Shown: in pieces, positions 10,669 to 45,501 of the stretch
Layout of the letters: every line of letters begins with the position of its first letter
Position numbering within the stretch: position 1 is the stretch's first letter
From: Macrophomina tecta
Lineage: Eukaryota > Ascomycota > Dothideomycetes > Botryosphaeriales > Botryosphaeriaceae
Assembly (NCBI GenBank): GCA_024180945.1
Contig: JAKSGN010000041.1
Location: forward strand, 2,046,001-2,110,000
Reading direction: 5' to 3'
Length of the DNA: 64,000 bases
Translations under genes and position numbers: made by a program
Notes under the pieces: generated by a model
What the model saw: the letters and a program-made list of their open reading frames with translations, nothing else
What the model was told of the DNA's origin: nothing
The model's database searches: none

Positions 10669-12393
10669 TTAGTCACAGCGAGGTTTTAGGTGGACGTACA
10701 GCGTGTCCGTAGCCCAAAACCCGAAGGCCCTCTGGCCATCCATCCAACCGGCTGACTCGGGCGCGAGGGCGTCCATGTCAAAAGAGTATAGCAGCTTGGC
10801 GATGACGAGGCGTATTTGGTACAGTGCAACGCTATTGATTGCCGAAGGGATCAGCGAGCATGATCGAGAAGACTGAGAAGGGAACCAAAGCCACCGCAGA
10901 AAGTATTGCGTGCCACTTACCTCTTACCTATACAGTCCCGAGGCCCCGTTGAGAAGGGTTTGACCGTTTCTCGGCTATCGTCCTTAAAGCGCGCATCTCC
11001 CAGCCAGCGCTCTGGGATGAATTCGGTTGGGAGCTTGAAGTGTTTTGCCGAAAGATGGGTGGAATAGGTGGCGACGGAAACAACGGTCTAAGGTCAAACC
11101 CCAGACCTCAAATCAGCGGACGCCCCGCACAGAAGACGGGGGGAAGAGAAAAAAAAAAAAAAAGCAAGCGGGAAAAAGGAGAACCCATCACGGCTTTCAG
11201 GTCCACTTACTCCAGCAGGGATATGGTTCCCACAAATAATAGTACCCGGAGACGGCACGATGCGGGGCGTGCCTGGCGGAAGGGGTGGATACACGCGCAT
11301 CGCCTCGCTGACGCAGGCGCCGAGGTACTTCAGCTTAGAGACGTTGCTGAGCGTGATCTCGCCCGCGCTCGCGAACGCGGAGCGGAGCTCGTGGACCAGC
11401 TTCGCGCGCGCGGGGGGATTGGCCAGCAGCAGGTAGGACAGGCCGCTGAGCGCGACGGCGTTGGTCTCGGTGCCGGCGGCCAGGAACGAGGCGGTCGTGC
11501 TGACCATCTTGTCGTAGTCGATCAGCGGGGCCTTGCTCTTGAGCAGGAGCGTCCACATGTCGAGCCGGTCGGTCTCGCCCTGCGCGACGCGCTTGTCGAA
11601 GCGGGAGAGGAAGAATTGCTGGCGCATCCGCTTCCTGGCCGTGTCGGGGAAGAGGGCGTTCAGCGCCTTGTCGAGCAGGGGATACCAGCCCCGTATGCGC
11701 TGCGTCGCCTTGCCGGTGATGTGGAACTTGCTCGCCTGGGCTAGGTCCTTCTCGTAGTTGGCAAGATGGCCGAGCGGCTCGCCCAAGGTCATGTCGGCCA
11801 TGATGTCCACGGCGTTGAAGAGATAGAGCAGCGACAGGGGCACTGCCTCGCCCCTCTCGACCATGTGCCTGATGATGGCGATGAGGCGGTCGGCATGCTT
11901 CTGAAAGATGGGCTCTTGGTCTCGGACGGCGCGGTCGGAGAATGCGGGCGAGAAGAACTTGCGGACTCGGGCGTGGTTCTCTTTGCCAGCTCCTCTGATC
12001 AGCCCGCCTTTGCCGACGGCTTCGGGACCGAAGAAGAGCGGCTCCCGCTCCCATGATTCGTTGCCGTAGATGTCTCTCCAGGCCGCTGGCTGCAGGAAGG
12101 ACACCTCATTTGGTTGCACGCGGACGACATTTCCATATCGCTCATGGAGCCTTTGGAGATGGCGGTGCACGGTGCCCCTTAGAAGGAAGAAGATGTAAGG
12201 GAGACGAGTGAGCTTGTGGAGCATGGGCCCGGGATAACTCTTCAACGGATGGAAGTAGATATGATGGACGGCAGTGCACGCGACGTACACAATGACCTGG
12301 AACCTTCGTCATGAGCGCATGCTATGGAAACAGAACACCGAGAGTACTGACTGCAAAAATAGTGGCCAGAGCGAGCTCAACTGAGGAAGTCAT
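10669..12393 (-). CDS. Cytochrome P450 (P450-1)
   Basis: Heme-thiolate monooxygenase, ER-anchored by a short N-terminal hydrophobic segment. Four exons: 12393-12352, 12296-11211, 11087-10921 and 10831-10669; 485 aa. It has the KSYPGP hinge, the I-helix motif AAGTETN, the K-helix ExxR as EAMR, then FIPERW, and the heme loop FSTGPRDCIG with Cys428. The last intron splits the Ser codon following CIGK. The heme loop and I-helix resemble those of P450s that decorate trichothecene-type terpenoids, so terpene-skeleton hydroxylation is the likely job (inferred). A tiny first exon of 14 codons supplies the anchor; the start was chosen because it gives a normal-length P450 with consensus splicing. It is the leftmost cluster gene, followed upstream by four more leftward genes. 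Confidence 0.9.
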
Positions 12394-12879
12394 TGTGGCA
12401 ACAGTAAGAATGGATGAGAGTCACAAGGCGGAGATTGCCCGCCTATGCTACACCGTCCCGTCGTGGACGATGTTTTCCGGCGGCCACAGCAGGCTTTGAG
12501 AGCCATATGACAGCACGTGCCGGGCTGGGCAGGGGGCTCTGAAAATAACAGAACGAAGCCAAGATACAGCATGTAAAGACGTCTATGTGGAGGGGTGGCA
12601 CGGGAAAGAGCGAGGCTGTTAGTTTATCGAGACTCATGCGCTAGCGCCTGCAGATTCAAATCCACGCAGTACCACACTTGGAAGCAAACTCAAACGAGCT
12701 CTGAAGAAACATCCCCGCAGATTGCGTTCTCCCCTGGTCCGGCTATTTGAGCCTAATTTGACGGCCGCGTGTACGAATAACCGATGCGAAGTGAAACAGA
12801 GTATCGCAAGGTGAGCGCAAACACCGAGTACGGACAGCTAACTTGAAGAAAAGGGTGATCCCGACGAGAAAGCCCGGCT
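12394..12879. other. Intergenic, P450-1 promoter
   Basis: Between the start of P450-1 and the stop of acyltransferase-1, both leftward. No gene or RNA seen. Confidence 0.45.
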
Positions 12880-14277
12880 CTAGTCGACCACGCGCTGCAC
12901 GTAGGCGCGAAGGAACTCGTCCTGCGCGAAGCTTTCCATCTCGTCCTCCTCGAGCTCGACCATGACGTCGACGCACCGCGCGGCGCCGGGCAGCACGAAG
13001 AGCGTGCCAGGGAAGCCGACGTACGGCTTGCGTGTAGCCTCAGCGCACTGCCCGCGGCCGGAGGCGTCGAGGTCGAACGAGGCGCCGCTCATGAAGGCCG
13101 CCGCGCTCGACAGGAAGAGCCCGGTGTGGCCCACGTCCATGGCCCGCAGCGCCGCCAGCGCCACCTCGCGCGGCCCGCAGCCGCCCAGCTTGCTGCCCAG
13201 GAAGGCGACGCGCTCGCGCACGAAGCTGCTGTCGACGGCGTCGATGGCGGCCCGCACGGCCATGGCGGCGTGCGTGATGTTGGCGATGCTGCCGGCCAGC
13301 CCGCGGTCCGGAAACGACGACAGCCGCGTCTGCGCGAGCGCGAAGAGCACCGTGTTGCGCAGGTATTCGTGCGGCACCGGCGGGTCCACGCGGCCTCGTA
13401 AGTCGACGGCCGCCGCGAACTTGGCCGTCGTGTTGTCGCCGAGCCGGCGAGCGCGCGCTCGCAGCACTCCGAGCCAGATCAGCGCGTTCAGGCAGTTGTT
13501 GGTCGACACCCAGCCTGGCTGTCCGGCTGCCCGCATGTGCTCCATCACTGCCGCCTTCAGCGCCACCAGTGTTGCTGACGCAAATGAGAAGACGCGGCCC
13601 GTCGAGCGCGGACACCCCGTGAATACGGGCACAGAACTGTCAAAGTTGAACTCGGGCAAGCCGTCCGGCACCGCCTTGTCGCCATCCAGCCGCGCTGGTA
13701 GGAAGATGCGCGGCGGCGCACTGTCATCGTTGTCCGTTGTCGTCGGCGCTTCAGCCCCATTCCACGTGTGGCGCGCAATGTGGTTGAGTGCTGCTGTCGC
13801 GGAGCTGCCGTCGAGCACGGCCCGCTCGACGATGATGGCCAGCACGAGGCCGCCTTCGATGAAGTTCAGCTTGATGACGCACACGGGCGCTGGCTTGGAT
13901 GTGTCCGCCGACGCCCGTGAAAGTCTGTCTCCCGGGAGCTCTTTGATCGGGAAGCCGGCCTCGCGCCATTGCTCGTAGCTGTAGGGGAAGACACTGCGCT
14001 CGATCTCGTCAACAACCAGAATGCCAGCCTTGAAGACATCTGAAACGTCTGCCTGACGCTGCACGGCCGTCTGCGGCCGCCCGTCGGCGTCGTGGATGGT
14101 CGTCAGGATGCCACCGAGGATGGGGAAGGTAGCCAGCGTGGCTTCGAGCCCCTTTTTGATGCGTTCGACGGCCGTATCTTTGGCGGTCGGGCCGGCCAGC
14201 GGGAAACAGAAGTAGCACGATACATAGCCAGTGCCGTATAGATTGTCCAAGACGGAAAGTCGCCAGGTGCGCTGCAT
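12880..14277 (-). CDS. BAHD-like acyltransferase homologue lacking catalytic His
   Basis: Intronless, 465 aa, the usual size for fungal BAHD-type (transferase-family) acyltransferases. These move an acyl group from CoA to an alcohol. N-terminal features fit the family: LDNLYGTGYVSCYFCFPL and LATFPILGG. The site where the family has HxxxDG reads ERAVLDG: Asp156 and Gly157 are present, but residue 152 is Arg (codon CGG) instead of the general-base His. The C-terminal DFGWG-like motif is also not recognisable (SFDLDASGRG). The gene is open, undamaged and keeps strong coding character, so it is not an obvious pseudogene. It may be inactive, may use another base, or may do a different reaction. 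A TATA box lies at 14345-14350. Confidence 0.8.
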   Translation of the reverse strand: MQRTWRLSVLDNLYGTGYVSCYFCFPLAGPTAKDTAVERIKKGLEATLATFPILGGILTTIHDADGRPQTAVQRQADVSDVFKAGILVVDEIERSVFPYSYEQWREAGFPIKELPGDRLSRASADTSKPAPVCVIKLNFIEGGLVLAIIVERAVLDGSSATAALNHIARHTWNGAEAPTTTDNDDSAPPRIFLPARLDGDKAVPDGLPEFNFDSSVPVFTGCPRSTGRVFSFASATLVALKAAVMEHMRAAGQPGWVSTNNCLNALIWLGVLRARARRLGDNTTAKFAAAVDLRGRVDPPVPHEYLRNTVLFALAQTRLSSFPDRGLAGSIANITHAAMAVRAAIDAVDSSFVRERVAFLGSKLGGCGPREVALAALRAMDVGHTGLFLSSAAAFMSGASFDLDASGRGQCAEATRKPYVGFPGTLFVLPGAARCVDVMVELEEDEMESFAQDEFLRAYVQRVVD

Positions 14278-14344
14278 CTTCTCACTCAGTCAATGTGGTG
14301 TTGGCGGCGAATGCGGTCTGTCTCGCACGCTTCTACGGGCCATC

Positions 14345-14350
14345 TTTATA
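14345..14350 (-). promoter_or_regulatory. TATA box for acyltransferase-1
   Basis: TATAAA on the minus strand, about 70 bp upstream of the ATG at 14277. Position and sequence fit a core promoter; not tested. Confidence 0.5.
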
Positions 14351-14532
14351 CCCACCGAGAAAAGCTGCGAGGGGTGTCCGGAAACATGCAAGAGAAAAGT
14401 ATATTGCGTATTTGCTTACCCGCTACGGTACAACCTTGGTGCAGCCAGAAATGTACGAGTTGACAGCAACTTTCAGCCTCTCCCTGTCCACACCGCAGTT
14501 AATGGCAAAACAGATCAAGATGGCCGGACATG

Positions 14533-16327
14533 TTACGCATCTATACGCGGTTTTCTCCGTTTCAGGCCAAAGCCGGTATCCGCATTCTCTCTCCCCAGAT
14601 GCATCCTCTTCTCCAGCAAACACACAAAGCATAGCGCAGACAGGCCGATCTGGGTATACCACACCAGACGGAGGCTGTCGACAAAGACCCCGACAGTCTG
14701 TGCTCGCGTACCACGTTCGACAGACAGCGAGTCGAGGAAGGCTTTGGTAGCGCGCGAATAAGCCTGGCCGCCCGATAACTGGCTGCTGGCAATCGGGTCT
14801 TGGACGCGGTGGGCGAGCTGCTGGGCACGCCCGTTGAAGACGGCAGCCGGCACGGCAAGTCCCCAGAGGCTGCCCAACGACTGCCCGAAAGCCAGTGCCG
14901 CAGCCGACTTGGCCACATCCGACGGCGACAGTGCAGCCTGCGCTGCCGGCAGCACCGTTGCAGCAAGGGCGCCGGGCCCAATGCCGGCAATCATGCGGAA
15001 AACGACCCACATGGCTGTGGGTGAGCGCTCGTCGAGCGTGCTCATCAGCCCGGCGCCGGCTGTCTGGATTGCCGCACAGACGATGTGGATGGACTTATAA
15101 TCGCCCGTCTTGGAGAGCAGCTGGCCGCCCGCGAGGGCGGAGAATGTGGTGGCGAAGACAGCCGGGAGATACTGTACGCCCGCCTCCGCCGGACTGGATG
15201 CTAGCACGCCCTGGAGGTAGACCATGAAGAAGCTGAGCATAGTCGACACCAGGCCGCTGGCGAAAGACATGGTCCAGCTGGCAACAAAGTTGCGATTGTG
15301 GAACATGTGCGGCGGCAGCATGGGGAAGGGCGCAAAGGCCTCGTAGACGACGAAGCCAGCGAAGCCAGCCAGGCCCAGCAGCAGCGGCAGAAGCACCTCG
15401 ATGCTCCCCCACGGGTGGATGGTGCCCGCCCAGCCAAGTGCCAGCACCGACGAGACGCATGCCGCCACGAAGATCGCGTTGCCACGCCAGTCCATCCGGC
15501 TGAAGACCTCGCGCGCGCTGTGCGGTATGTGGTTGACGCGAAGCAGGAGGGTGACGAGGATGGCCGCCAGTCCGCACGGTGCAAGCGTGATGTAGTAGCA
15601 CCACCGCCAGCCCGCTCGCTCCACCAGTAGCCCGCCCACCACTGGGCCTGCCGAGTACCCCACCGTGACCGCGCCGTAGATGAATCCGCAATACTTCGCC
15701 CGCCGCCGCAGCCCCACCAAATCGCAGACGAGGATTTGGCAGAGCACCGAGATCCCGCACCCTCCGAGCCCCTGGACCGCCATGCCTGCGATCAGCATGG
15801 CCATGTTGATGCTGCTGCCACCGATGGCTGACCCCACGGCAAACAGAGCAATGCACGCGAGAATGGGCCTGCGTCGCCCCACGCTGTCCGACAGCGCCCC
15901 GACAAAAGGCCTGAAGCTCGTTCTGCCCGCTTCCTATCAGCATTTTTTTTTTTCTCCCACTGCAGCAGAGAGCTCTTGGGCGTACATACTGTGCCAGGTT
16001 GTAGCTTGTGAACGCCCAAATGTAGTCGTACGTCCCACCGAGTTCGTGCACAATCGACGGCATGGCCGGAATCAGCACTCCCTGGTTCAGCGCGCAAACG
16101 AAGCTCGTCAGGCTTAGTGATGCGAAGACGGCCCAAAAGCGCCAATCCTGCTTCTCGTCTGCCTGTGCATCTTGTTCGCTAGGGCCCTCTGCATCAGGGG
16201 CACCATGGCGGAGAGGCACCGTCGAGGATGCTGTAGTGAGCGTCTGAAATGGTTTACTGCGGCTGTCCGAGCTTGAGGAAGCCATTGCGCGCAAGTGTTT
16301 CGCAAGCGACACGATTGTAGTTGGCAT
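14533..16327 (-). CDS. MFS transporter, DHA2-like, 14-TM type
   Basis: Membrane exporter, probably for the cluster product. Two exons, 16327-15990 and 15910-14533, giving 571 aa. After a hydrophilic N-terminus of about 65 residues, the first membrane segment contains FVCALNQGVLIPAMPSIV. The intron rejoins NLAQ with PFVGALSDSVGRRRP, the loop 2-3 motif A of MFS drug exporters. Motif C-like GYSAGPVVGGLL follows. The number of hydrophobic segments suggests 14, as in drug:H+ antiporter family 2. A second in-frame ATG at 16285 (MASSSSDS) may be the true start, because a TATA-like element at 16346-16352 lies only about 20 bp upstream of 16327. The gene sits 205 bp upstream of the P450-2 stop, on the same strand. 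Confidence 0.88.
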
Positions 16328-18620: not shown

Positions 18621-19482
18621 TCAGCGTCCTGCACCCCCGACGGCAATATTGATGCCCGAGATATTCCTTGATTCGTCGCTCAGCAACCACTTCACGACAT
18701 CAGCAACATCCGCAGACCTAAGAAGCTTTAGAGATGCTACGTCGACACCGGACTCCCGGGGCAGAAAAACAGGAATCATGGCCGTGCTGGTTGCAGCTGG
18801 GACCACGTCAGGTGCCCGTCAACCAAGTCGCCAGGGCAGAACGCTTACCAGGCGAGACCGTGTTAACCCTGATGCCGAACTTCCACACATCCTTTGCCAC
18901 ACAAACTGAGAAGTGCGCTAGCGCAGCCTTCGACGCTCCGTATGCGAAGAAGTCACCGACCGGGGTGGTGCTCGCAAGACTGCTCATGTTGACGATAGAG
19001 TGGCTGCGTTTCTCCGCTGATGCCCGGCCTAGCATTGCCTGTACTTGTGCTTTGGTACAGTGGAAGACTCCGTCAAGGTTGACAGACATAATGCGCCTCC
19101 AGTCATGGGCGTCCTCCTGCAGGATGGCTGGACGATCGCTGGGTCTGCAGTACGCCGCCTGTGCCACCCCGGCGATGTTTGCGGCCAAGTCGAGGGGACC
19201 GACGTCCCGAGTTATGGTCTCGATCCAGTCTTGCACGGATAAGGCCTGCGAGACGTCGACTGCAGCGGTATGCAGCTGAATGCGGGGATACCTGGCTTGG
19301 ATGTCGGAGGAAGCCTTCTCGAGAGCATCGACGTTGCAGTCCGCTATGCAGATATGAAACCCGGCATGCATGGCGCATCTTTTCGCGAGAGCAAGCCCGA
19401 TTCCAGATGCTCCTCCCGTAATAGCGATGACTTTTTGACTTGAACTCGAAAACATTTTGGCACGAGTAAAGTGTAGAGACAA
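18621..19482 (-). CDS. Short-chain dehydrogenase/reductase
   Basis: NAD(P)-dependent oxidoreductase, probably oxidising a hydroxyl made by a P450 to a ketone or the reverse. Two exons, 19482-18849 and 18796-18621; 269 aa, typical for a classical SDR. The cofactor loop is TGGASGIG (22-29), followed by NIAG in place of NNAG. Ser168 of NMSS, Tyr181 and Lys185 of YGASK form the catalytic set. The intron splits an Ala codon just after VSP and rejoins the C-terminal substrate lobe. A later in-frame Met (MFSSSSQ, 19455) is an alternative start; TATTTAA at 19512-19518 is about 30 bp upstream of the first. It shares a 0.6-kb divergent promoter with CmcJ-1. Confidence 0.9.
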
Positions 19483-20105: not shown

Positions 20106-21196
20106 ATGGCCGCCACTGTTCTCCCGCCGCAGGTGCCCATTGCACCCCACACAGCATCAACTTCAGAGAGGCAGTCAGCGCGCTTGGGTCCAACCGACTT
20201 TGAGACATACGTCTACTACCTTAAGGTTGCCCCCGAGACGGAACTGGCAAGTAATCAGATCCAGATAATGATGGGCGAGGAGACGGAAGACCCCAGGACC
20301 GTCGTTGTCCGTGATATCCGCCCGCACATTGATGAATTTACTCTGGACAAAGACGGCGCTGAGGTCGTGCAAATCTCAGAGCAATACGACCTTTTGGCCG
20401 AGGACGACGACACCTATTTTGCGGAGGTCGACAGATATCTCAAAGATGTCCGGGATCTGCTCAAGAAGAAGTAAGCCGCAGGAACCGCCCTCTTTATCAA
20501 CTGACGCTTGTGTGCGCGAAGCTGATAGGGCGGACGCAGGACGGGTGCGAGGTTCGTCAAGACATTCTTGACCATTTCCCGCCCGAGGTGCCTCCACCAC
20601 AAGCATCCCGACCCCAAAGTGCCGACTCCGTACCGGAAGTTCACCATCCCTCGTGCGCACGCCGACTTTTCTCCAGACTCGGTGCCCGCCGTATGGCAGA
20701 ACTTGCCAAGGATGCACGTGCAGATGTGCGAGAAAGGAGACCAGTTCATGGAGGAGTGGAATGAGGCTAACGAACTCTTGAAAGAGAACCCCCGCGTCAT
20801 GCTTCTCGGGTGCGTGCACACACCGTTGGGTCCTATTTGACTTGCTAACGTTGCGCTAGGGCATGGAAGCCTCTCGTCACCGTCAAGAGTGTTCCATTTT
20901 GTTGGGTGGACCCGAGGACGGTTGACGACGAGAATGACTACGTGCACATGCCGCGGGTCGAGAAGAGTGTCTACAATGGTGGTATTTCCATCATGAAGCA
21001 TGAAGCGCCAGGCCCGTCAAAGCACGGGTGGTTCTATGTTCACGAACAGCAGCCACATGAACTGCTGCTTTTCAAGCACTACGATTCGAAGGACGGTGTG
21101 GTTTGCAAGGTCGCCCACGCTGGGTTGGAGAAGCCTGGCACCGAGCACTTGCCTGATCGCCTCAACATCGAAACACGGGTTGCTGTCATTTTTTAA
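20106..21196 (+). CDS. CmcJ/NvfI/EfuI-family oxygenase-like (CmcJ-1)
   Basis: Three exons, 20106-20470, 20540-20809 and 20860-21196; 323 aa. Members of this family recur in fungal terpenoid, meroterpenoid and aspergillic-acid clusters and are usually called hydroxylase/desaturase-like. Family signatures seen: ETYVYYLKVAPETE, VVVRDIRP, FTLDKDGAEVV, TGARFVKTF after the first intron, WKPL followed by a CWVDPRTVDD substitute for the usual substrate strand, then HELLLFKHYDSKDG and the closing IETRVAVIF. Intron 2 has a CTAAC branch site. The reaction is not predictable. A second, divergent copy (CmcJ-2) sits at the other end of the cluster. It converges on P450-3 with 583 bp between the stops. Confidence 0.85.
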
Positions 21197-23761: not shown

Positions 23762-25242
23762 GGCCGCCGTGGAGATCAAGAATGTTGCTCGCAAGCCTTC
23801 GTCGAACAGTCTTGCCCTGATATGCAGCGGGTCTCCGTGGTGGCGTAACGGTATATTTGCATCGCTCTGCTGCATGTGTGAGCGGATACCCATTCCGTCC
23901 AAAACTGTAGTAGACAGGGTAAGCCCATGGAATCAAATTGCGCTGTTTTTTTTTTTGGCGGAATTCTTAACCTCGCATTCGGGATCCGCCATTAGAATTC
24001 ATGATCGGCAGTCCAGATGTCGGAACAGTGCCTGGCCAGAACTTTATCTAGAGCGGAAGGCGGTAAATAATGTATTATTGTCTGAGACCATTTTGACTCG
24101 CTAACAAAGTTAGGTTTACCGTCAATCATGGGCCTGTGATGTCGACGGAACTTGCAGATTACCCGGAGTTCCTTCGGTCGGTAGTGCACAGGCTTCTCCT
24201 TAGCGGGGATCTCAAACTCTATATTCCTTCCATAGAAAGCTCAATTGTTTATTGGTTATCATCTCTCAACGGCAGACTTGTTTCACTGCCAAATCATGGG
24301 TTGGAGTGATTAACCACCAGGTTTAAGTTTTGTATCAAAAGAGGTCCGACGCACAGTGCGAGTCCAAAAATGACTACCCTTGGACTGAACGGTGCCGATG
24401 GAGTTGCAGCAGTCGTTCGGGCAATTGCTTCAGCTACACTTAAGCCGCGCAATACGTGGTGCTGGCTATCACATCAAAGCTGGTATAGTCGAGGTTGATG
24501 TCTTTTGCTGTCCGCTGTGCATGGGTCATGCTCCGGGCCAGTGCTTTAGCTGACACTCATCCCAATGCAGAGGGGACATGCAACTCGCTTTTACCAGTGA
24601 GAGAGTATGATCTGTCCAAAATTTAGTTTCACATGCCTACTCAATCCAAAATATTATTTCCCGCGGCTCGTAAAGATCAAGTCGGGCTTGAAGGAAGCTT
24701 AACATGGCACCCCTATCGGCTTCAATTGGCGAAGGCAGACTCAGGCGACTTGATAAGCGGCTTGCTGCAACGCTTCAAACTCAGCTTGTCAAGTAACACC
24801 ACCGCGAGTGGCGTTCCCGCCCTCGATTCACGCAAAACGAAAAAAAAAAAAAAAGATTAATAAACAAGACAACATGTTAAGTGGTATAAACATTTTAAGG
24901 CTATGGCCTTCGGCAGCGTTCATGCATCACGTCCAGCGTATACTGGTTACTGGCCAAGCGGTTCCTCCTAAGTAAGTTTTATTCATGTCTCGTCTGCATC
25001 AAAAATGCTTGTCAGTTGTGGCTTCGTTTCAGAGTCAGGTGGCATATCTGTGTCAGTAAATCTCAACTCCTGTATCGAGGTTGAGAGGGGGTCCGTTCGA
25101 TACGTACGAGTACGCACAAAGTATGCTGTGGGCCATCAACACGGTGAAAGTTCTGCTGATGGCTCAGGGTCGAGCCACTGTCGCATCCGATTCTTGCTCG
25201 CCCTACTCGCACCAGCCATAAGTCCGAAGCATGCAAGCTGCA
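23762..25242. promoter_or_regulatory. Divergent promoter P450-3 / terpene synthase
   Basis: A 1.5-kb spacer, the longest inside the cluster. The ORF 24633-24860 ends in an A run and has no motif. No gene supported; both promoters must lie here. Confidence 0.5.
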
Positions 25243-29205: not shown

Positions 29206-30364
29206 ATGTCGAAAATGGCGATTCCGACCCAGCACGCTTTGATAGTAGCTGGCCCAGGAAGGTTGGAGCATCACGCAGACGTGCCGCGGCCCTCCGCGGG
29301 CGCCAACGAGGTCCTGATCCGAGTCAGCGCGGTGGCGCTGAACCCCGTCGACAACAAGGCCGCAGAGCTATCCCCCGCGACAGGAGCCATCGCGGGATGC
29401 GATTTCTCGGGCACCGTCCACCAAGCTTCCAACAACGACAACAAGCTCGCGCCGGGGCAACGAGTCTGCGGACTCGTATTCCAGGACCCGGCAGAGCACC
29501 TTCACAACGGCGCCTTCGCAGAATGGGTAGTTGCGGACCCCGACTTCCTCCTGCGCGTGCCGCCGGCCATGTCTACGGAAGAGGCTGCGAGTCTGGGCAT
29601 TGGCCTGGCCACCTGCGGGCTCGCGCTCTACCATGAGCTCGCATTGCCCCGCCCCTCGGCGCCCAGCAGTGTGTCGAACCCGGTGCTGGTCTACGGCGCC
29701 TCGACTGCCACCGGCACTCTCGCGTTGCAGCTCCTGAGATTGTAAGACCATACCACGCCCCTGCCCTAACCCTGCCCTACCCTGCCCCCACCGCCTGAGA
29801 GCCAGTCAACCCTGACCCGTTGGGCCATCGCAAAGGTCTGGGCTCCAGCCCATTGCAATATGCTCGGCCAGGAACTTTGATCTCGCCCGGTCGCGCGGCG
29901 CGGCCATGACGTTCGACTATCACGATCCGAAGTGCGGGGAGGCCGTGCGCGAACTCACCGGCGACAGCATCGAGTGCGCCCTCGACTGCATCACCACGTC
30001 CGAGTCTATGAGCGTTTGCTACCGCGCCATCGGGTCCAAGGGAGGCAGGTACCTCGCCCTCGACCAGTACTCGCTCAGGCAGCACACGCGCAGGGCCGTG
30101 AAGCCGCGCTGGATCTTGGCCAACACCATGTCCGGCAAGCCGGTGGCCTGGAAGGGCGCCTACAGGCGGGAGGCGAAGCCGCGCGACCGCGAGTTCATCG
30201 CTTCGTGGTTCCGCGAGTGCCAGCAACTCCTGGACGGGGGCACGATCCAGCCGCACCCGCTGAAGGTGCTCCGAGGCGGGCTGGGCGAGGTGCTCAGGGG
30301 GTTGCAAGAGTTGAAGGAGGGAAGACTGTCTGGGCAAAAGATTGTATGTTCTCTGACGGTTTAG
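29206..30364 (+). CDS. Trans-acting enoyl reductase (LovC-like)
   Basis: Zinc-independent medium-chain dehydrogenase/reductase that reduces the alpha,beta double bond of ACP-bound enoyl intermediates made by a PKS whose own ER is dead. Two exons, 29206-29741 and 29836-30364; 354 aa from MSKMAIP. Features: HALIVAGPGRLEH start, VLIRVSAVALNPVDNK, AGCDFSGTVHQ, ASLGIGLATCGLALY, cofactor loop VYGASTATGTLALQLL, and the second half with CSARNFDLARSRGA and GGRYLALDQYS. These match LovC-type enzymes. The open frame reaches further upstream (29125), but the MSKMAIP or MAIPTQ start fits the family. Context supports the role: the PKS 2 kb away has no ER cofactor motif. The stop is 57 bp from that of acyltransferase-2. 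Confidence 0.9.
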
Positions 30365-32282: not shown

Positions 32283-35200
32283 ATGGCGCACAACGAGCCA
32301 ATCGCCATCATTGGCACCGCGTGCCGTTTTCCAGGATCCATCGACACGCCTCGCAAGCTCGAGCACTTTCTGCGCAATCCATGCGACGTACAGGGCGAAA
32401 TACCTCCCCAAAGACTGAACCTCTCAAAATTCCAGAACGACGACCCAAACTACCACGGCTGCACCAATGTCAAGACAGCATACATGCTTGACGAAGATAT
32501 CAGCGGCTTCGACGCCGCCTTCTTCAAAATCAACCCCCAAGAGGCCGAGGCCATGGACCCGCAGCAGAGGCTGCTGCTGGAGGCCGTGTACGAAGCGCTG
32601 GAGGCCTCGGGGCACGGCTTGCAGGCGATATCGGGCACCAACACGGCCGTCTTCGTCGGCTGCATGAACGGCGACTACTACGACATGCAGATCCAGGACC
32701 TGGACACGCTGCCCAAGTACCTCGCCACGGGGACGGCGCGCAGCATCCTGTCGAACCGCATCTCGCACGTCTTCAACCTCAAGGGGCCCTCGGTCACCGT
32801 GGACACGGCGTGCTCGTCGTCCATGGTGGCGGTGCACGACGCGGTCGAGAGCATGCGGGCGGGCAGGGCCGACATGGCCATCGTCGGGGCAGCCAACCTC
32901 ATCCTGTCGCCCGAGATGTTCATCTCCGGCGCGCACCTCGGCTTTCTCTCGCCGACGGCCCGCTCACGCATGTGGGATGCCGCGGCCGACGGCTATGCGC
33001 GCGGCGAGGCAGTCATGGCGCTGGTGCTGAAGCCGCTGGCCAAGGCCATCGCCGACGGCGACGACATCGAGTCGGTGATCCGGGCGGTGGGCGTGAACTC
33101 GGACGGGTGGACCAAGAGCCTGACGATGCCGAGCGCGGAGGCACAGACGGCACTGATCCGGAGCACATACCGGAGCGTCGGGCTCGACCCGGCCACCGAC
33201 GCGGGCCGCTGCCAGTACTACGAGGCCCACGGCACGGGCACGAGGACGGGCGACCCCATAGAGGCCGAAGCCATCCACCGGTCCTTCTTCGCCGACGGCC
33301 GCCCCGGCGAGCGCAAGCTTCATGTCGGCTCTATCAAGACGCTTGTCGGCCACACGGAGACCTGCGCAGGGCTCGCCGGCATACTCAAAGCCTCGATCGC
33401 GGTGCAGAACTCCTTCATCCCGCCCAATCTCCTCTTCTCCACCCCCAACCCGGAAATCAAGCCGTTCCTCGACCGCCTCCACGTCCCGCTCGAAGCAGCC
33501 CAGCCATGGCCTGAGGCGAAGCCCCGGCGTGCCAGCGTGGGGAGCTACGGCTTCGGGGGTACGAACGGGCACCTGATAATCGAAAGCCACGAGCCGTCTC
33601 TGCCCATACCCCAGAGAGAGCCTCCAGGAGCCAGCGTCGATGCCCGCGAGCTCGGCGTGCCGCTCGTCTTCTCTGCCAATTCGCGCTTCTCACTAGTTGC
33701 CAATGTGCGCCACTGCGTCGAGCACTTCCAGCGCGAGGAAGACATCAGCCTCGAGCACGTGGCCTGGACGCAGCAATGCCGGCGCTCCGCCCTGCCCTTC
33801 CGCATCTCATTCGCAGGGCCCACCAAAGCGGCATTGGTCGAAGCCATGTCCGCACGTGTTGCGGCCGCGCTGGACGGCGGCGGCATCGGCAGCTTTGGGA
33901 CAGACGGCAGTCATTCTTCTTTTTCTTCTTTTCCCCTCTCTCCTCCCCCTGGAGACCAGGGCCCGGCAGCCATCCTGGGCGTCTTCACCGGACAGGGTGC
34001 GCAGTGGGCGGGCATGGGGCGCCAGCTCCTCCGCGAAAACACTGTGTTCGCAGACGCGATCCGGCGGTGCGAGGAAGCGCTGGCGGAGCTGCCCGAAGCC
34101 GCCTCGCGCGACTGGACTATCGCGGACGAGCTCGCCAAAGACGGCGCCGACAGTCGGCTGGGCGAGGCGGAGATCGCGTGCCCGGTGGTGACGGCGCTGC
34201 AGCTCGCGCTGGTCGAACTGGTGCGTGCGGCCGGCATCGCCTTTGCCGGGGTGGTGGGCCATTCTTCGGGCGAGGTGGCCGCGCTGTACGCAGCCGGGGT
34301 GTACTCGCTGCGGCACGCCATGCAGATCGGCTTCTACAAGGGCTACGTCGCGAGATTCGCCGCCGGAAAGCCGGGGGCGATGATGGCCGTTGCCATGAGC
34401 CACGACGCGGGGCTCGAGTTCTGCAAACAAGACCGCCTCAAGGGCCGCGTCGTCGTCGCGGCGAGCAACGCCCCCGACAGCGTCACGCTGGCCGGCGACG
34501 CCGACGCCGTCGAGGAGGCCAGGGAGCTGCTGCGGGAGAAGGACGTTTTCGCACGCCTCCTCAAGGTCGACAAGGCCCACCATTCCCACCACGTCGAGCC
34601 GGTGCTTCCCCACCTCCTCAAGTACATCTCGCGCCTTGGCATCAAGGCGCGTGAGCCCAGCCCGGAATGCCCTTGGATCTCGACGCTGTACGGGGACGAC
34701 CGAATGAACTTCGGCAGCGCGAGCGAGGCACTGGCGGGCCAGTACTGGTGCGACGCCGCCATCAGTCCCGTCCTCTTCGCCGAAGCCATCGAGGACTCGC
34801 TCCACTCGGCAGGGCCCTTCGACCTCGCCCTAGAAATCGGGCCCCACGCGACGCTCCGCGGCCCGGTGACGAGCACCGTCAAGGCGGCCCTGGGGTCCTG
34901 CTTCCCATACGTCAGCATGCTCTCCCGCGGCGCCGACAGCGCGCAGGCCGTAGCCACCGCGCTGGGCGCCATCTGGGAACACCTGGGCCCCGACGCCGTG
35001 GACCTGGAGGCCTACCGTCGCACACTCGAGCGCCATAGCCCTGTTCCGCGCGTGGTCAAGCACCTGCCGCCGTACTTCTGGGACCGCGCCCGCTTCTGGC
35101 ACGAATCGCGCGTGTCGCGGAACCGCCGGCTGCGGGGCGGCGCCTTCCACCCGCTGCTCGGGCGGCGGTGCGCGGACGATTCGGAGCGGCTGCTGCGCTG

Positions 35201-38200
35201 GCGGAACGTGCTGCACCTGGACGAGCTGCCGTGGCTGCGCGGCCATTGCTTCCAGGGCGGCGTACTGTTCCCCATGGCTGGCTATGTTGCTTATGCCGTG
35301 GAGGCGGCGTACTGCATGGGGCAGGCACTGAGGCCTGGCGCGCAGCCGGAGCAGATATCGGTTGAGGAGCTGCGGGTGTCCAAGGCCCTAAGCTTAGCTG
35401 AGGGCGGCGGCGAGGGCGTCGAGAGCCTGGTGTCCCTCCTAGCGGACCCGGAGGATGGACACGACGACGTTGGCCCTGCATCCGACGCTCTTGCGGCCGC
35501 CTTCTCGTGTGAGATGCACGTGCCCGGCCCGGACTCGACGCTGGAGCGGTACTGCACGGCGCGGGTGCGTGTCTCGTACACAACTGTCGAAGCAGCGGGC
35601 CGGCCGCTGGTTGATGAGGCTAGTGTCGTCGACACGCCCTCTACGCTGAACGTTGACGCCTTCTACGCGCATATGGACGCGCTGGAACTGGAGTACCGAG
35701 GCCCTTTCCGCGCCATGAAGGCGGGGAGTCGGGGGACTAACAAGTCACGCACGTTCGCCAGCTGGCCGCGTGCGGAGCTGTCCGGTTTCGCGCTGGTGCA
35801 TCCGGCGGTGCTGGACGTCTCGCTACAGTCCACTTTTGCTGCGCTATATCCGCCAGGCAGCATCCGCCTACGCAGTCCTATGCTACCGGTAGCTATAGAA
35901 CGCGTTGTCGTGCGTCCTCGGCCTCTGCTCCAATATCAGGAAAAAGGACGGCAGGAGGAGGGGAGAGATGAGCTCACGGCTAAGGCGCACGCGGAAATGG
36001 CCTGGTCTTCCTTTCAGCCCGTGGGCGACGTGTCTGTCTGTATTGATGGACGTAGCGAGCCCGAGGTTGTGGCCCATGGTATACGGTTCAGGGGTTTCGA
36101 GGAGCCATCACCAGCCAACGACACGGACCTTTTCTACAAAACGCTCTGGCAGCCTGACGTCACGAGCGTCTCAATTCCAACGGTCGACGCCGATGCCCAT
36201 AAAGTCGAGGCGCTGCAGCGCATGGCCTTGTTCCAGGTGCGGTGTTTCGTCGAGGGCTTGCAGCAGGGCGAGCCTGGAAGCTTCCGGTGGCATCATCAGC
36301 GCATGGCTGGGTACTACATGCGGCTGCTCCGGGACGTAAAGGACGGACGACGCAGCGATATACCGTCGTCATGGCTGCAGGATCGAGAGGAACACATCGA
36401 AGAGCTCTACGGGCACTGGCAGCACGTCATCGATGCCAGATTGGCAACCGCTGTAGGGCGTAATCTGCTTGCTGTGTGTAGGGGGAAGCGTGATATGTTG
36501 GAAGTTATGATGGAAGACGGTAAGCTGTTCTAGCACAGTGCTGGCAAGGTTCGGTTATACGTGCACTCACCAAAGTTGTATGAGAAAAGCGCTCGACAGG
36601 CTTGAGCGGGCTGTATGTCATGCAAGCTTGGTCGCTCTACACGTTAATCAAACCTTGCGGGCACTGTGGAAGCAAAGAAAAAAGAAATAAAAACGAAGAA
36701 AGGCTAACAAGACTCGCAACAAAAACCATAGACATGCTTAGCGAAATGTACAGCAATGGCATTGGCGCAACGGCGACAAACTTGTCTATATCCCTCCTGG
36801 CGCGTCACATCGCTCATCGCTACCCGCGCATGCAAATTCTCGAAGTCGGTGCGGGCACAGGCGGCACTACGGCCTTCATTCTGGACGCTCTGGCCGACAA
36901 CTACGCCTCGTACACCTTCACCGACATTTCAGCCGGCTTTTTCGAGAGGTCTGAGGCGAAGCTGGCGGCGCGTGCCCGGCGCATGAGCTTCAAAGTGCTT
37001 GATATCGAGAAGCCAGTCGCCGAACAAGGCTTTGAACAAGGCACTTACGATCTCGTGATTGCCGCCAATGTACTGCACGCAACCCGGCGCCTGAGCGACA
37101 CACTGACGAACGTGCGGGCCCTATTGAAGCCAGGCGGGTATCTGCTACTCGTCGAGATCACAGGCGATCCAATCTCGCTGTATGATGCTCTCATATACGG
37201 CGGGTTGGAGCAGTGGTGGACGGGTGCTGCTGATGGCCGGTGCGACCACCCAGGGGCCGTTCAGGACCGTTGGCATCAGGAGTTGGGTGCTGCTGGCTTC
37301 TCCGGAATAGAGAAGGCTGTGGTGGCGCCCGGCCCAGCAAATCCGGTGTACTCGGTCATTCTGAGCCAGGCGGTCGATGATGTGGTGTTGCGACTGGAGC
37401 ACCCATTGGCTCCACAGCACGTTGAGCAGCCGCTCGCTGGCGTGGATCGGCTCGTCGTCGTTGGCGGGCAGACCAACATTCTCCTGAATATCGTCGCTCA
37501 GGAGACCTGCCGTCGTCTCGCAGAATTCGGATACGTCGCAGATCGTACCTGCTCGCTGGACGAACAAGTTCCGCCTGGTAGCGCATTGCTCGTCCTTTCC
37601 GAGCTGGAGGGGCCGCTTCTCGCTCCTCCGGTCAGCAAAGCCCGGCTCAGCGCACTCGCGGCCACGTTGAGAAACTGCAAAGACATCTTGTGGGTGACGA
37701 AGCGCTGCCGTGACCCCTATGCGGCCATGCTCCTCGGCGTCGGACGCGCTCTGTTCAACGAAATGCCTCACGTCAGCCTCCAGTTCTTGGATCTGGACGA
37801 TGCGTCAGAGCACACAGCTAAGAACCTCTGCGAGCACTTTCTCCGTCTAGTGGCGGCGCGGGCGCTCCAGATCGATTACGGCAACTGCTTGTGGACTAAG
37901 GAGCCGGAGATTGCGATGCGCGAGGGCAAACTGATGATACCGCGGGTCGTGCCCGACGATGAGCTCAACGGGCGACTGAACTCGTCGCGCCGCATGATTC
38001 TGGAGGAAGCACCGGCCGACTGCCCACGCGGTGTAGAGCTTCGACACGAGGGTAGATCGGCGTTTCTGGCATATCAAGTCGCCTCACCGAAGCCATCGTT
38101 GCAGTTGGTCAAGATGAAAACGACGTTCTCCATGCTGCATCCACTCCCAGGCACGGCGCTGTACGTCTGCACTGGGCGGGAAACCGAGACTGGAGATCTG

Positions 38201-41200
38201 CTGGTGGCCCTTAGCCCCTCCAACGGCTCGCTGCTGGAAGTGGAGGAAAGTGATGTTGCGCGCTTGGCGAAGCTGCCGCACTGTGACGAACAGGTCCTGC
38301 TCACAATCTTTTCGGGAATTCTCCTACGGATGTTTTCGTCTTTGGCGCCCCCCGGCCGCGACGTTGTCGTCATCAACGCAGATGATGCCATTGCGAGACT
38401 CTTCGCTCAGCTCGAGCCTCCAGCGGGAAATGTGATTCTGGCCTCTACCACATCATCAGCAATTCAACAAGCTCACCTCCGGTCCATATTCATCCCTCCA
38501 GCCAGCTCGAGAGCCGCACTGCGGGCATGCATTCCGCAGTCCGTGGCTGCTGCGGTCAACATGTCTACCGTTGCCTCCGAGATGTCAGCACAGCTCCGGC
38601 AGTGGTTTCCTTGTTTCGACTATCCGATGCTGCTGCATCCGGCCGCAGAGTCATTGCACGTCTGGCTGAAAGAAAGCGGCGAGCAAGTTCGCCGAATGGA
38701 GCGCCAGCCAGGCGCGGCAGACAAGCACAAGGTCATCGCGGCCAACAGCGTGTACGGGCATGGACAGCAGAACGTGCCGTGGGGCTGCATGGTGGCATGG
38801 GCGCAGCCGGAGCGGTTCCGAGTGCGCACGATGCCGCTGGACCACGCGTCGCTCTTCCGGGCCAACCGCACGTACTTGCTCGCCGGGCTCTCGTCCGACC
38901 TCGGGCTCTCGGTGGCGCGCTGGATGATGGACAACGGGGCGCGGCACGTGGCCATCGCGAGCCGCAACCCGCAGGTGCCCGCGACGTTCGCGCGGCGGGC
39001 CGAGGCGGGCGGGGTGCAGCTGAAGGTGCTCAAGATGGACATGACGCGGCAGGCGTCGGTGGCGGCGGCAGCGCAGGCGGTGGCGGCGACGATGCCGGCG
39101 GTGGCGGGCGTGTGCCACGGGGCGATGGTGCTGCACGACCGCGTGCTGTCGGAGATGACGGCGGAGGAGGTGAACGCGGTGCTGGCGCCCAAGGTCGAGG
39201 GCAGCCGCAACCTGGACGCCGTCTTCGCCGCGCTCGACTTCTTCGTCATGCTCTCGTCGGTCGCGTGCGTCATCGGCAACATGGCGCAGGCCAACTACCA
39301 CGCGGCCAACCTGTTCATGGTCGACCTGGCGGCGCGGCGGCGGGCGCGCGGGCTGGCGGCGTCGGTCGTGCACCTGGCGCTGGTTGCGGGCGTGGGCTAT
39401 GTGGCGCGGCAGGGCCAGACGGCGGAGCTGGAGAAGACGTTCGTCGCGCTGCACGAGGAGGACGTGCATCTCGCGATTGCCGAGGCGATTGCGGCGGGCG
39501 AGCGCGCGGAAGCGGAAGCGGCAGAGGGCATCATCTGCGGCATGAAGCGCGTGACGGAGCGCGACGCCCGCAGCCGCAGCCGCAGCGGCTCGCACTGGTC
39601 GCGCAACCCGCGCTTCTCCGCCCTCGTCGACCACGCTGCGTCCACCACCACCACCACCACCACCGCCGCCGCCGCCGCCGCCCCCGGGCCGTCCGCCAAC
39701 CTGCCTGCCGCGCTGCGCGGCATCGAGACCGAGCACGAGGCGGCGGCGGTGGTGCTGCACGCGCTGCTGCACAAGCTCGCCTGGGCGCTGCGCACGCCCG
39801 CCGACGCGCTGGACCCGCGCGCGCCCGCGTCCCGGCTGGGCCTCGACTCGGTGCTCGCCGTCGAGATCCGCTTCTGGTTCCTGAAGACGATCCAGGTCGA
39901 GGTTCCCATCCTCAAGATCATCGAGTGCTCCGCCGACGCCCTGAGCCGGCTCGCCGCCAGCCGCTTCCTGGCTGCCAATCAGCACCACCACCAGCCGAGC
40001 AGTGCGAGCGCTGGCGGGCCGGGCCGCGAGCCAAGCCAAACAACACCTGCTGCCGCTCTTCCCCCCGCCCAGCTGACTTCCTCCCGCACGAGTGCTGGTT
40101 CGACGCTGACAACGTGCATCCAGGGCGCCGACGCGCAGGCCGCCGATGTTGAGGAGGCCGTGGACGTCAGCAATCCGGTGGTGAGTCCCCGCTCTGGCAC
40201 GACACGCCCCCCCCCCCCTTCCATTCTAGAGATCGAGCCTGGAAGCATCGCGACAGCACTTTCCCATCTCAGTGCGCCGTACCGCTCCCAGCCAGTCGGA
40301 GCAGCCGTCCGCATGCACGCGGCCCCCGATCTCCGGGCGGCTGCTTCAGCTTTCCCTCGCCCGGTCCAGTGCGCCCTTCCGTACTCTGTGAGCTAACTCA
40401 CCGTGCTTCGCAGCAAGCCACCACAATCCCCCCGTGCTCCAGCATTTTCGTCTGCGGCGCGACCGGCAGCCAGGGTGGCGCTGTAGCCCGCCAGCTGCTC
40501 TCCAACGGCTACCGCGTGCGCTGCGTGACGCGCACGCCCTCCTCCGCTGCCGCCCAATCACTTCGCGACTCCGGCGCGAGCGTCTTCTCCGGCGACTTCG
40601 ACGATGCCGAGAGCCTGTCACGCGCCATGCAGAGCGCCGCCGCCGTCTTCATCAACGTGCACCCGGGCTGGACCGACCCGGGCGCGCGGCTGCAACACGT
40701 CCAGAACCTGTGCGCCGCCGCCCAGCGCGCCGGCACCGTGCAGCTGCTCATCTACTCGAGCGTGCGGCGGACGGGCGAGCACGATCGCGACGGCATCATG
40801 ACGCCCGGGCGGCGCAAGCTGCTCGAGCCCACCTGGGCGATCAAGGCGCAGTGCGAGGCTGCCGTCGAGGCCGCCGCCGGCATCCGCCACTGGACCATCG
40901 TCCGCCCCTCGACCTTCATGAAGAACTTCCTGCTGCCCATCGCGCCGCTGGCCTGGCCGGGCCTCGTCGACCGCCACGTCTTCAAGACGGCCCTGCGCCC
41001 AGACGTCTGCGCCGGCTTGGCCGACGAGGACGACATGGGCCGCTTCGCCCTCGCCGCGCTGCGCGACCCGGACCGCTTCCATGCGCAGCGTGTCGACTGG
41101 GCCGGCGATCATCTTACGCCCGCCCAGGTCGCCGCCGCGCTGCAGGCCGCCACCGGCCTGGAAATCGCCGTCCAGTCGTACGGCGAGGAGGAGGCGCGCG

Positions 41201-41373
41201 TCCAGGCTGAGGTGAACCCCCTGCTCGCGTCCCAGCTCTACCTGTCCGCCTATCCCGAGGCCCCCGATCCCCGCTTGTTCGAGAAGTGGGGGGTCGAGAC
41301 CACGAGCTTTGCGGCTTACCTCGAGAGGAAGGCGACAGAGGTGCGCGCGACCTTTGGCTTGGGTGTGGATTAG
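32283..41373 (+). CDS. Highly reducing PKS fused to NmrA-like domain
   Basis: Iterative type I synthase building a reduced, C-methylated chain from malonyl-CoA. Exons 32283-36519, 36732-40180 and 40414-41373; 2881 aa. Order: KS (Cys177 of DTACSSS, His316 of EAHGTGT, His357 of GHTE); AT (Ser661 of GHSSG); DH (His988 of HCFQGG, Asp1178 of LDVSLQ); C-MT (LEVGAGTGG near 1450); a degenerate ER/structural region; KR (GLSSDLG near 2130, Tyr2268 of NYHAAN); ACP (Ser2452 of LGLDSV); a Ser/Thr/Pro-rich linker; NmrA-like Rossmann domain (GATGSQGG near 2577) to the end. No thioesterase, condensation or reductase domain is seen. The missing ER fits the separate trans-ER. Exon 3 has no ATG before its Rossmann loop, and its intron has CTAAC 20 nt before the AG, so fusion is the best model. 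The function of the NmrA part is unknown. Confidence 0.88.
40181..40413 (+). other. Intron separating PKS ACP from NmrA-like domain
   Basis: A 233-bp phase-0 intron with GTGAGT donor, CTAAC branch site at 40393-40397 and CAG acceptor. It contains a C run near 40208-40217. If retained, the frame stays open for 71 more codons and then stops at 40394-40396, giving a PKS without the NmrA part. Confidence 0.75.
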
Positions 41374-41794: not shown

Positions 41795-41811
41795 GGGCTA
41801 CTTGGGCAGCT

Positions 41812-43691: not shown

Positions 43692-44341
43692 TCCGTCATG
43701 ATCATTTCAGTTTAACCGGCACATCTAGACGCAAGACATACCATGGCATTCGCTTGTGCATGCCTTTGGGACTAGTGATACGTAGTTCCACGTTTAGTAT
43801 TTGTGCAGCCTAGAACATAAGGCAACACGTCTTAGCTCAGGAAGTTACAGTTCCTCGGCCAGCGCAGGAAACTGTCGTGACTCTGTGACTTGGGCACGAT
43901 TCACTCATAAACTTTATGCGAGGACCAGGATGATACAGGTCAGCGCAATGTATGTACTCGCAAGCAGCTCGGATCGCTTCAATTTTCCAGCACAACCTGT
44001 GCCATCGATGAGTAGGTCTTCAACCCGACGCTAAATCATAAAAGAGAAAGCTGCATGAACGAAGATAAGCTTAAGCAGATACAGTTCGGATATACCTGGC
44101 GCGCCGTCAAAGCTAAGTTCGCCGAAAAGTGGGAAAGAAGAAGTCTCTTCCCTGCAGTTTTAGTTTATCTCTCGGGCCCCGAATTGAGTTTTCGCACCAC
44201 ACAGTACTTTAGCGTAATGGAAGTAAACTAAAGGAAGGGGGTATATGAACCTTTTGTATATTACGGCAGCTTTCGATATAAAAACAGGAGCTTCGGGGAT
44301 TGCGTGCTAAGTCCACTCATCCTAAACTGAGGGTGTTCGTT
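43692..44341. other. Intergenic, CmcJ-2 promoter
   Basis: No gene seen. TATAAAAA lies at 44277-44284, 58 bp ahead of the CmcJ-2 ATG. Confidence 0.5.
44277..44284 (+). promoter_or_regulatory. TATA box for CmcJ-2
   Basis: TATAAAAA, well placed relative to the ATG at 44342. Confidence 0.5.
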
Positions 44342-45501
44342 ATGGCCTCGCAAACAGTCTGTATTTCCGCACCGGCGTCTTCTCCGCAGGATCGCGGGAG
44401 CCGGGGGGATGCCGTCGGTCGTATGAACTATCTCAAGCACTTGGAAATCTACAAATTGGTCCCTCCCTTCAAAGTCGCCCAGCCCGACCTTGACCCGGAC
44501 TTTCCGCCGTCGAATCTCGTCTTCGAGCAAGGTCCCGAGGAAGTTGTAGAGGATATCCGCGGCCGCGAAGACCAGTTCGACCTCGACAACAATGCCTTTT
44601 GCATCCGACGGAACGAATTCAAGCCAGTAGGTTTTGATGACACGGAGGAGGTCAAGAGGAGCTTCAGCCCGCAGATAGTGGACTTGATCCAGCGGGAGAT
44701 TCCTGACGCTGAGTTCATCCACATACTCAACTGGGTGATCCGAAACACGGGGTTCCGTCCTCTTAATTCCGGTTTGACCGTTCATAGGTGCGCACTGCAG
44801 ACCCAAAAGCAGTCACCAACCCCATGGGTGCCATCAGCAGATCGGAGGACATGGGTCCAAAGATCAAGCCGACCTCCCCGTACTTTCAAGTCCATAACGG
44901 CATGCCATGGCCGGTTTTGAGAAAGCCAGTCCCATTGATATATATATATGCGCAGATTGCTCTCACACCTGCGGCTTGAAACGCTTCGTCCCTATGCTGG
45001 AAGCGTTGGGGAAAGCTGGTGCTGCCAACAAACGCATTCGTTTGATCAAGTAGGAACTCCACATCGCGGCCGAGTAACAGTTTCATTGAGTTAATGGCAA
45101 ACAGTGTCTGGAGGCCAATCGATCACCCGGTCGGTGACTGCCACCTCGCCCTCTGCGACGGAAGCACCTTTGACGAGGAGCGCTGCCAAGAGGGTATCGA
45201 CGTTATTCCTGGTAACTACGTCTGTGACGTTTTGTACCCGGGCTACAGCGAGAAACAGAAGTGGTACTACATGAGCCATCAGCGGCCCGATGAGGTTTGG
45301 TTGTTCAAGCAGTTCGACTCCCGCCCCGCGGGCCCAGCCCTATGTAAGTCAACGTTGTGTCTGTTCTTGCTGAACAATGCCGAAGGAACTGAGTGACATG
45401 TGGCAGGCTGCCCCCATTCGGCTTTCTGGGAGAAGTCCCCAGATGAATGTACCCATCCTCGAAAGAGTATTGAGGTCCGGGCTCTGGTTGTCAGTCCTTA
45501 A
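44342..45501 (+). CDS. CmcJ/NvfI/EfuI-family oxygenase-like (CmcJ-2)
   Basis: Five exons: 44342-44734, 44788-44899, 44956-45049, 45105-45343 and 45407-45501; 310 aa. Signatures are stronger than in CmcJ-1: MNYLKHLEIYK, FCIRRNEF, the VHND-CSHTCGLKRF segment built across intron 2, INVWRPIDHPVGD across intron 3, WYYMSHQRPDEVWLFKQFDS, then CCPHSAF and PRKSIEVRALVV. The first intron (44735-44787) explains an apparent frame change. The second (44900-44955) appears to be a GC-AG intron, with weaker support. The likely role is an oxidative step on the terpenoid or polyketide; reaction unknown. This is the rightmost recognisable cluster gene. Confidence 0.85.

Follow-up and report, generated by a model that had tools for sequence, protein, structure and literature searches.

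Fungal clusters that pair a diterpene or other terpene cyclase with a polyketide synthase (PKS) are already known. As described in the available parts of the reports, the hypoxysordarin/sordarin clusters sdn and tdn of Sordaria araneosa and Talaromyces adpressus contain a diterpene cyclase, four cytochromes P450 (P450s), the PKS SdnO and an α-ketoglutarate dioxygenase (PMC9095873, PMC12006653), and the core atranone cluster ATR1–ATR14 of Stachybotrys comprises 13–14 genes in ~35 kb, with a reducing PKS, a terpene cyclase and no internal regulator (PMC4117958). A 2022 review of fungal sesterterpenoid biosynthesis presents the chimeric terpene synthases, in the part available, as occurring alone or with P450s, and its main text does not contain the word PKS (PMC9605422). 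The DNA considered here, hereafter the window, is a stretch of 64,000 nucleotides of the ascomycete Macrophomina tecta (contig JAKSGN010000041.1, C35:2046001-2110000, of an assembly of 54.1 Mb in 37 contigs); between its positions 10669 and 45501 lie 14 genes, among them a chimeric terpene synthase and a highly reducing PKS accompanied by a trans-acting enoyl reductase (trans-ER), that we read from their sequences, with a probability of about 0.6, as one biosynthetic gene cluster for a terpenoid–polyketide hybrid.

Left to automatic gene finding, the genes between 12880 and 18441 were merged and those of low guanine-plus-cytosine (GC) content missed or cut, the genome having 56% GC as sampled in 20 stretches of 10 kb. 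The gene models, based on splice-site rules and homology, were built with an exon–intron predictor trained on the window and 20 genome stretches, the low-GC genes being modelled by hand from three-frame translations, and families were assigned by sequence matches to Pfam, NCBIfam and the PDB. The 14 models rebuilt in this way (Table 1), each open from start to stop, extend from the 3′ end of the P450 gene g01 (10669) to the stop of g14, the second CmcJ-type gene (45501). All introns are GT-AG with the sole exception of a GC-AG intron in g14 (44900-44955), and the models of g06 (307 or 323 amino acids, aa) and g08 (676 or 675 aa) each allow one alternative splicing, the 307-aa and 676-aa forms being those used here. 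The wealth of introns and the families of the genes fit a filamentous fungus. The gene spans, introns included, occupy 28,542 of the 34,833 bases, and only two open frames of at least 100 codons (105 and 174 codons) are left that lie mostly outside the models, so that the interval holds no further gene of size. The compactness of the locus and the 14 gene types listed in the first-pass annotation are thus borne out by the rebuilt models and their family matches, g11 being recognised weakly; that list did not include, on the other hand, a probable NmrA-like extension of the PKS, which would carry this gene to 41373, and one of its two acyltransferase-family proteins, g02, turns out to be without catalytic motifs.

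The terpenoid arm has at its centre g08, whose N-terminal class I cyclase domain (PF19086) carries DDVGD at residue 97, a motif that spans one intron and is assembled on splicing, and NDYFSFDKE at residue 231, while the C-terminal prenyltransferase domain (PF00348, E = 6.1e-61) carries DDIED at 434 and DDYQN at 565. All four metal-binding motifs are therefore kept, and the protein has what is expected of both the terpene synthase (TS) and the prenyltransferase (PT) domain of a chimeric synthase. The domain order and the four types of motif are the same as in the fungal chimeric synthases PbSS, sesterfisherol synthase, variediene synthase and MpMS, and the PT motifs DDIED and DDYQN are identical to those given for ZbSS in the available part of its report (PMC8307374). 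The whole protein has PbSS as its top PDB match (368 bits); the cyclase domain alone scores 121 bits with sesterfisherol synthase, 116 with PbSS, 115 with variediene synthase and 105 with both FgGS and TvTS. The assignment of g08 to a clade was dropped, the TS-domain scores being spread over sesterfisherol, sesterbrasiliatriene, variediene and other synthases; since these scores favor no single branch, neither a carbon number (C20 or C25) nor a skeleton is claimed. Further cyclase domains of the chimeric type are found in at least three places of the genome (C7:2703496, C7:4476415 and C5:2581298), in addition to a weak match on contig C30. Around the first of these places (C7:2699943-2703933) a chimeric-synthase-like cyclase exon has a g04-like P450 ~3 kb off, which possibly represents another terpenoid cluster.

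The polyketide arm has at its centre g12 and the reductase g10. Ketosynthase (KS), acyltransferase (AT), dehydratase (DH), methyltransferase (MT), ketoreductase (KR) and acyl carrier protein (ACP) domains are recognised in g12, each with the expected motif, the ACP falling just short of its Pfam cut-off (20.5 versus 20.8 bits) but displaying its LGLDS motif; no match of the alcohol dehydrogenase type, hence no ER domain, was obtained in a Pfam scan of the PKS. LovB, the lovastatin nonaketide synthase, likewise has no ER domain and relies on the trans-ER LovC; the second half of g12 matches LovB with 417 bits and g10 matches LovC (Table 1), so that the active-site motifs, the missing ER domain and the LovC-like reductase alongside are all those of a LovB/LovC-type pair. 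The MT, KR and DH motifs, together with the position of the trans-ER beside the PKS, point to a reduced, C-methylated chain, as the first-pass annotation had proposed. A LovC-like gene (C32:947829-948955, 49–50%) likewise adjoins the closest genomic paralogue of g12 that the search detected (C32:942916-947079, 45%), and the PKS/reductase pair thus occurs twice in this genome. A PKS locus of another kind was seen at C6:102730-150316, where four long open frames (2271, 4660, 4066 and 5851 aa) hold eight KS domains, two each, and three AT domains were found among them; over 1600 aa of the 4660-aa frame the domain order is KS-DH-ER-MT, no AT separating KS from DH. The GC content (56%) is that of the genome, and the locus has the appearance of a multi-modular PKS array, in part AT-less, in a fungal contig.

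At the 3′ end of g12 an NmrA domain is encoded at 40444-41373 (PF05368, E = 6.9e-40). Upstream of the domain its frame contains no ATG after the last stop (40150-40152), and the domain is therefore without an ordinary start codon of its own. A GT-AG intron of 74 nucleotides (40369-40442; GTGCGC..CCAG, with a branch-like CTAAC site) joins this frame to that of the PKS, which would stop at 40396 if this last intron were left unspliced. Very probably, then, g12 carries a C-terminal NmrA-like domain, i.e., it encodes a PKS–NmrA fusion, and in this probable C-terminus it differs from LovB. Other NmrA matches exist in the genome. None of the papers listed by a literature search on the topic contains the word NmrA, and the fusion is not claimed to be unprecedented.

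The two acyltransferase-family proteins differ in what they have kept. By its family matches g02 belongs with TRI101/BAHD, but the HxxxD site reads VERAVLDG, with an Arg codon (CGG) in place of that of the catalytic His; the corresponding site is QHGAMD in TRI101 and FHLVADG and VHHICVDA in two homologues from the same genome, both of which keep HxxxD and one of which shows DFGFG in its aligned part. No other HxxxD and no DFGWG or DFGFG (DFG[WF]G) is present in the whole of g02, which accordingly lacks both hallmarks of BAHD/TRI101-type acyltransferases and, having lost these catalytic motifs, is probably no longer an acyltransferase. In g11, a putative acyltransferase of the condensation-like type, the HxxxDG motif is present (HVYCDG), and its weak family matches are with PapA_C (18.8 bits, cut-off 30) and with the 15-O-acetyltransferase 3fot (E = 0.25); the gene is divergent from the PKS gene, with 433 bp between the two. 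Since g02 is without the catalytic His and DFGWG, g11 is the likely candidate for the transfer of the polyketide chain. Of the ester formation by two acyltransferases that had been envisaged for this locus there remains, therefore, one weakly matching candidate.

As to the oxygenases, g06 and g14 both exceed the NCBIfam cut-off of 80 bits for NF041278 and both keep HxD and a distal His (AHADFS...AHAGL and VHND...PHSAF, respectively), features that, like the family membership, they have in common with NvfI and its relatives. The VHND and PHSAF of g14 align with the matching sites of 7eus, NvfI being also matched, and its HxD hinges on the GC-AG intron; the AHADFS of g06 was set by eye against the HCDHTP of NvfI, a position at which the program alignment places a later stretch. 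The catalytic triad of NvfI is printed as His135-His137-Asp250 in the available part of its report (PMC8292354), but Asp is the third residue of the HCD stretch in the protein sequence, so that His135-Asp137-His250 is taken here as the real order. The two proteins are 25.9% identical over 259 residues, and the genome contains at least five CmcJ/NvfI genes, of which the two of this locus flank the PKS. An active/inactive heterodimer with a degenerate CmcJ partner, like the TlxJ/TlxI pair in the part of the report available (PMC12141560), had been considered because of an apparent HxQ in g06, and was rejected since AHADFS lies ~20 residues earlier and both proteins keep HxD. The SnoaL-fold protein g09 finds only itself in a search of the genome; a low-confidence fold predicted from exon 2 only, as a single sequence (pLDDT, the model's own confidence score, 63.5), gives NTF2-like matches, from which no function is drawn. 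The lead that SdnG of the sordarin cluster might be SnoaL-like was dropped, the available text assigning no conserved domain to SdnG (PMC9095873).

Taken together, the families and motifs suggest the following pathway. The PT domain of g08 would make a C20 or C25 diphosphate to be cyclised by the TS domain, and the resulting hydrocarbon would be oxidised and rearranged to an alcohol, in an order that the families do not dictate, by the P450s, the two CmcJ-type oxygenases, the short-chain dehydrogenase (SDR) and possibly the SnoaL-fold protein. In the third proposed step, g12 and the trans-acting g10 would build the reduced, C-methylated chain, which the NmrA-like domain may reduce further on the enzyme or at its release, and g11 would move this chain from the PKS carrier protein onto a hydroxyl of the terpene, by analogy with LovD, AusQ and Fma-AT, the product being presumably exported by g03. 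LovD, which acts in the LovF/LovD chain transfer of the lovastatin system, is of another fold, g11 resembling, weakly, PapA_C and the 15-O-acetyltransferase. That a PKS chain is passed to a completed core is, in the available part of the source, an established fungal step, carried out by LovD, Mfm4, AusQ and Fma-AT (PMC8902786).

That both arms belong to the same pathway, as the first-pass annotation had also suggested, is more likely than not, and must be weighed against the presence of two side-by-side clusters, a terpenoid one (g01–g09) and a PKS one (g10–g14), with two products. Several observations weigh against a single pathway. When 10 promoter regions were scanned for k-mers and dyads, no significant shared motif emerged: the best 6-mer, GTACGA, is present in 7 of the 10 with z 3.69 (40 shuffles: mean of the maxima 3.01, top 4.37) and has 38 occurrences in the window, of which 7 in promoter regions, the best 7-mer has z 4.50 (shuffles 3.77, top 4.85) and the best dyad z 4.31 (maxima of 15 shuffles 3.25–4.53), none of them exceeding what the shuffles gave, and no shared element is claimed. 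The coding GC is uneven (61–67% in g01–g04, 54–56% in g05–g09, 65–66% in g10 and g12 and 56–59% in g11, g13 and g14) and could reflect different origins; the kinship of the P450s g04 and g13 (31.9% identity over 492 residues) proves little, because g04-like P450s are numerous (95 exon matches in the genome); and g11 matches known acyltransferases only weakly. In addition to the lack of a common promoter motif, two clusters would be consistent with the GC step at the g09/g10 junction, from 54–56% to 65%, and with the wealth of PKSs in this genome (47 KS_C matches, split ones included), which allows such neighbors to arise. However, g01–g04, on the terpene side, are again high in GC and g11, g13 and g14, on the PKS side, are at 56–59%, so that the GC content does not follow the two arms. 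Moreover, the arms meet at g09/g10 in a divergent promoter of 755 bp with no gap, tail-to-tail gaps measure just 44 and 57 bp, the PKS is flanked on both sides by CmcJ-type genes, and the number of KSs to be expected within 10 kb of any one position is ~0.015 (~40 KS places in 54.1 Mb, an estimate that ignores the clustering of biosynthetic genes). The interleaving of the genes and the divergent promoters thus favor a single pathway, and two independent clusters appear unlikely.

Within a single pathway the two moieties might also be joined otherwise than by an ester to a terpene alcohol, the NmrA-like domain reductively releasing the polyketide as an aldehyde or alcohol that would be linked to the terpene through an aldol-type reaction or a cycloaddition, or would itself be acylated by a terpene acid. 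The very probable NAD(P)-binding NmrA-like end of the PKS and the loss of the catalytic residues of g02 speak for such a route; nevertheless, the reductive release domains known in PKSs fall, to our knowledge, in a different branch of the SDRs, and g11 keeps its HxxxDG and shares its 433-bp promoter with the PKS. Hybrids of a class I cyclase and a PKS joined late are known, xenovulene A arising through a hetero [4+2] cycloaddition according to the part of the source available (PMC8902786), but on balance joining by such a route is distinctly improbable here. Least credible of all is the reading of the locus as a diverged form of a hybrid cluster already described. Size, gene number, the cyclase/reducing PKS pairing and the absence of an internal regulator are indeed common to it and the core atranone cluster, as reported in the available text (PMC4117958), and sdn/tdn share the cyclase, the four P450s, the PKS and the α-ketoglutarate dioxygenase, all in one cluster. 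Yet, in a comparison of both with the locus by description, the Baeyer–Villiger motif (in the six frames) and the atranone promoter palindrome AGACATGTCT are absent from the window, and no separate methyltransferase or esterase was found by Pfam among the 14 models. The sordarin clusters, in turn, have a separate cyclase (SdnA) and geranylgeranyl diphosphate synthase (SdnC) instead of a chimeric synthase, a glycosyltransferase and sugar genes, and an SdnG of 146 aa for which the available text gives no known domain, whereas the present locus has the chimeric synthase, the trans-ER and two CmcJ-type oxygenases, and no glycosyltransferase or other sugar gene among its 14 models (Pfam).

The single hybrid cluster remaining the preferred reading, its novelty can be delimited. 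The statement that the combination is not recognised from a described pathway holds within the literature searched, in which no cluster is described that combines a chimeric terpene synthase with a trans-ER PKS, fungal genomes and MIBiG being outside that search; likewise, no cluster of a chimeric synthase and a PKS appeared in the literature on terpene–polyketide hybrids, as judged by titles and the openings of abstracts. The principle, on the other hand, is already found in the hypoxysordarin and core atranone clusters cited above, as far as the available parts of those reports go. What is new, in the literature searched, is the combination of enzymes, a claim whose main limit is that it extends to the literature and not to fungal genomes or MIBiG. 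Speculatively, and with considerable doubt, the locus might represent a new class of hybrids in which the alcohol from the pathway of a chimeric di-/sesterterpene synthase is acylated by a LovB/LovC-type PKS with an NmrA-like reductase of its own, the chain undergoing further reduction or a reductive release on the enzyme, and in which a BAHD-fold protein lacking its catalytic His now serves a purpose other than acyl transfer, e.g., binding or the steering of a rearrangement. Should the two arms work together, chimeric terpene synthases would be linked to reducing PKS chains and the locus would offer a ready target for a new hybrid metabolite, while the probable PKS–NmrA fusion and the protein that has the acyltransferase fold but no catalytic residues pose two testable enzyme questions.

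Table 1. The 14 genes of the locus and the NmrA-like domain of g12 (positions in the window)
Gene	Product	Position	Strand	Features
g01	cytochrome P450	10669..12224	-	3 exons, 447 aa; PF00067 on exon 1; heme FSTGPRDCIG; model may lack the N-terminal anchor
g02	acyltransferase-family protein 1	12880..14277	-	single exon, 465 aa; PF02458, PF22664; TRI101 66.8 bits; HxxxD His replaced by Arg
g03	major facilitator superfamily (MFS) exporter	14533..16327	-	2 exons; PF07690 and PF06609 (TRI12) on exon 2; stop at 14533
g04	cytochrome P450	16583..18441	-	6 exons, 495 aa; PF00067; heme FGLGAHACPG
g05	short-chain dehydrogenase	18621..19455	-	2 exons, 260 aa; PF00106; TGGASGIG, YGASK
g06	CmcJ/NvfI-family Fe/α-ketoglutarate-type oxygenase 1	20106..21196	+	307 aa; NF041278 92.3 bits; AHADFS, AHAGL, IETR
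g07	cytochrome P450	21780..23893	-	6 exons, 609 aa; PF00067; heme FTRGSRSCMG; N-terminus uncertain
g08	chimeric terpene synthase-prenyltransferase	25231..27791	+	10 exons, 676 aa; PF19086, PF00348; four motifs
g09	SnoaL/NTF2-fold protein	27836..28459	-	2 exons, 184 aa; PF13474
g10	trans-acting enoyl reductase, LovC-like	29215..30364	+	2 exons, 351 aa; PF08240, PF00107; LovC 231 bits
g11	acyltransferase-family protein 2	30422..31849	-	2 exons, 458 aa; HVYCDG; PapA_C below cut-off
g12	highly reducing PKS, KS-AT-DH-MT-KR-ACP with C-terminal NmrA-like domain (very probable)	32283..41373	+	4 exons, 2935 aa
g12, last exon	NmrA-like domain	40443..41373	+	PF05368 6.9e-40; no in-frame ATG of its own
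g13	cytochrome P450	41812..43691	+	5 exons, 532 aa; PF00067; FGHGKNSCPG
g14	CmcJ/NvfI-family oxygenase 2	44342..45501	+	5 exons, 310 aa; NF041278 161.9 bits; VHND, PHSAF, IEVR

No regulator is present among the 14 genes. The nearest frames of the Zn2Cys6 type among those scanned lie ~6 kb past g14 (51322-53450, minus strand), where Fungal_trans and Zn2Cys6 domains are found in neighboring open frames, possibly a regulator of the cluster or else an unrelated neighbor. On the P450 side the nearest neighbor is a single-exon model with a glycosyl hydrolase family 16 domain (8425-9681, plus strand), probably outside the cluster, and ~6 kb off the cluster a predicted gene (2638-4252, minus strand) bears a likeness, by eye, to acyl-CoA dehydrogenase. 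At the other end an AT-richer stretch (45502-49776, 47–51% GC) without predicted gene separates the cluster from its neighbor, and farther out on this side (55910-59715, plus strand) a predicted protein resembles, by eye, the protein kinase C of fungi, which would make its gene a housekeeping one.

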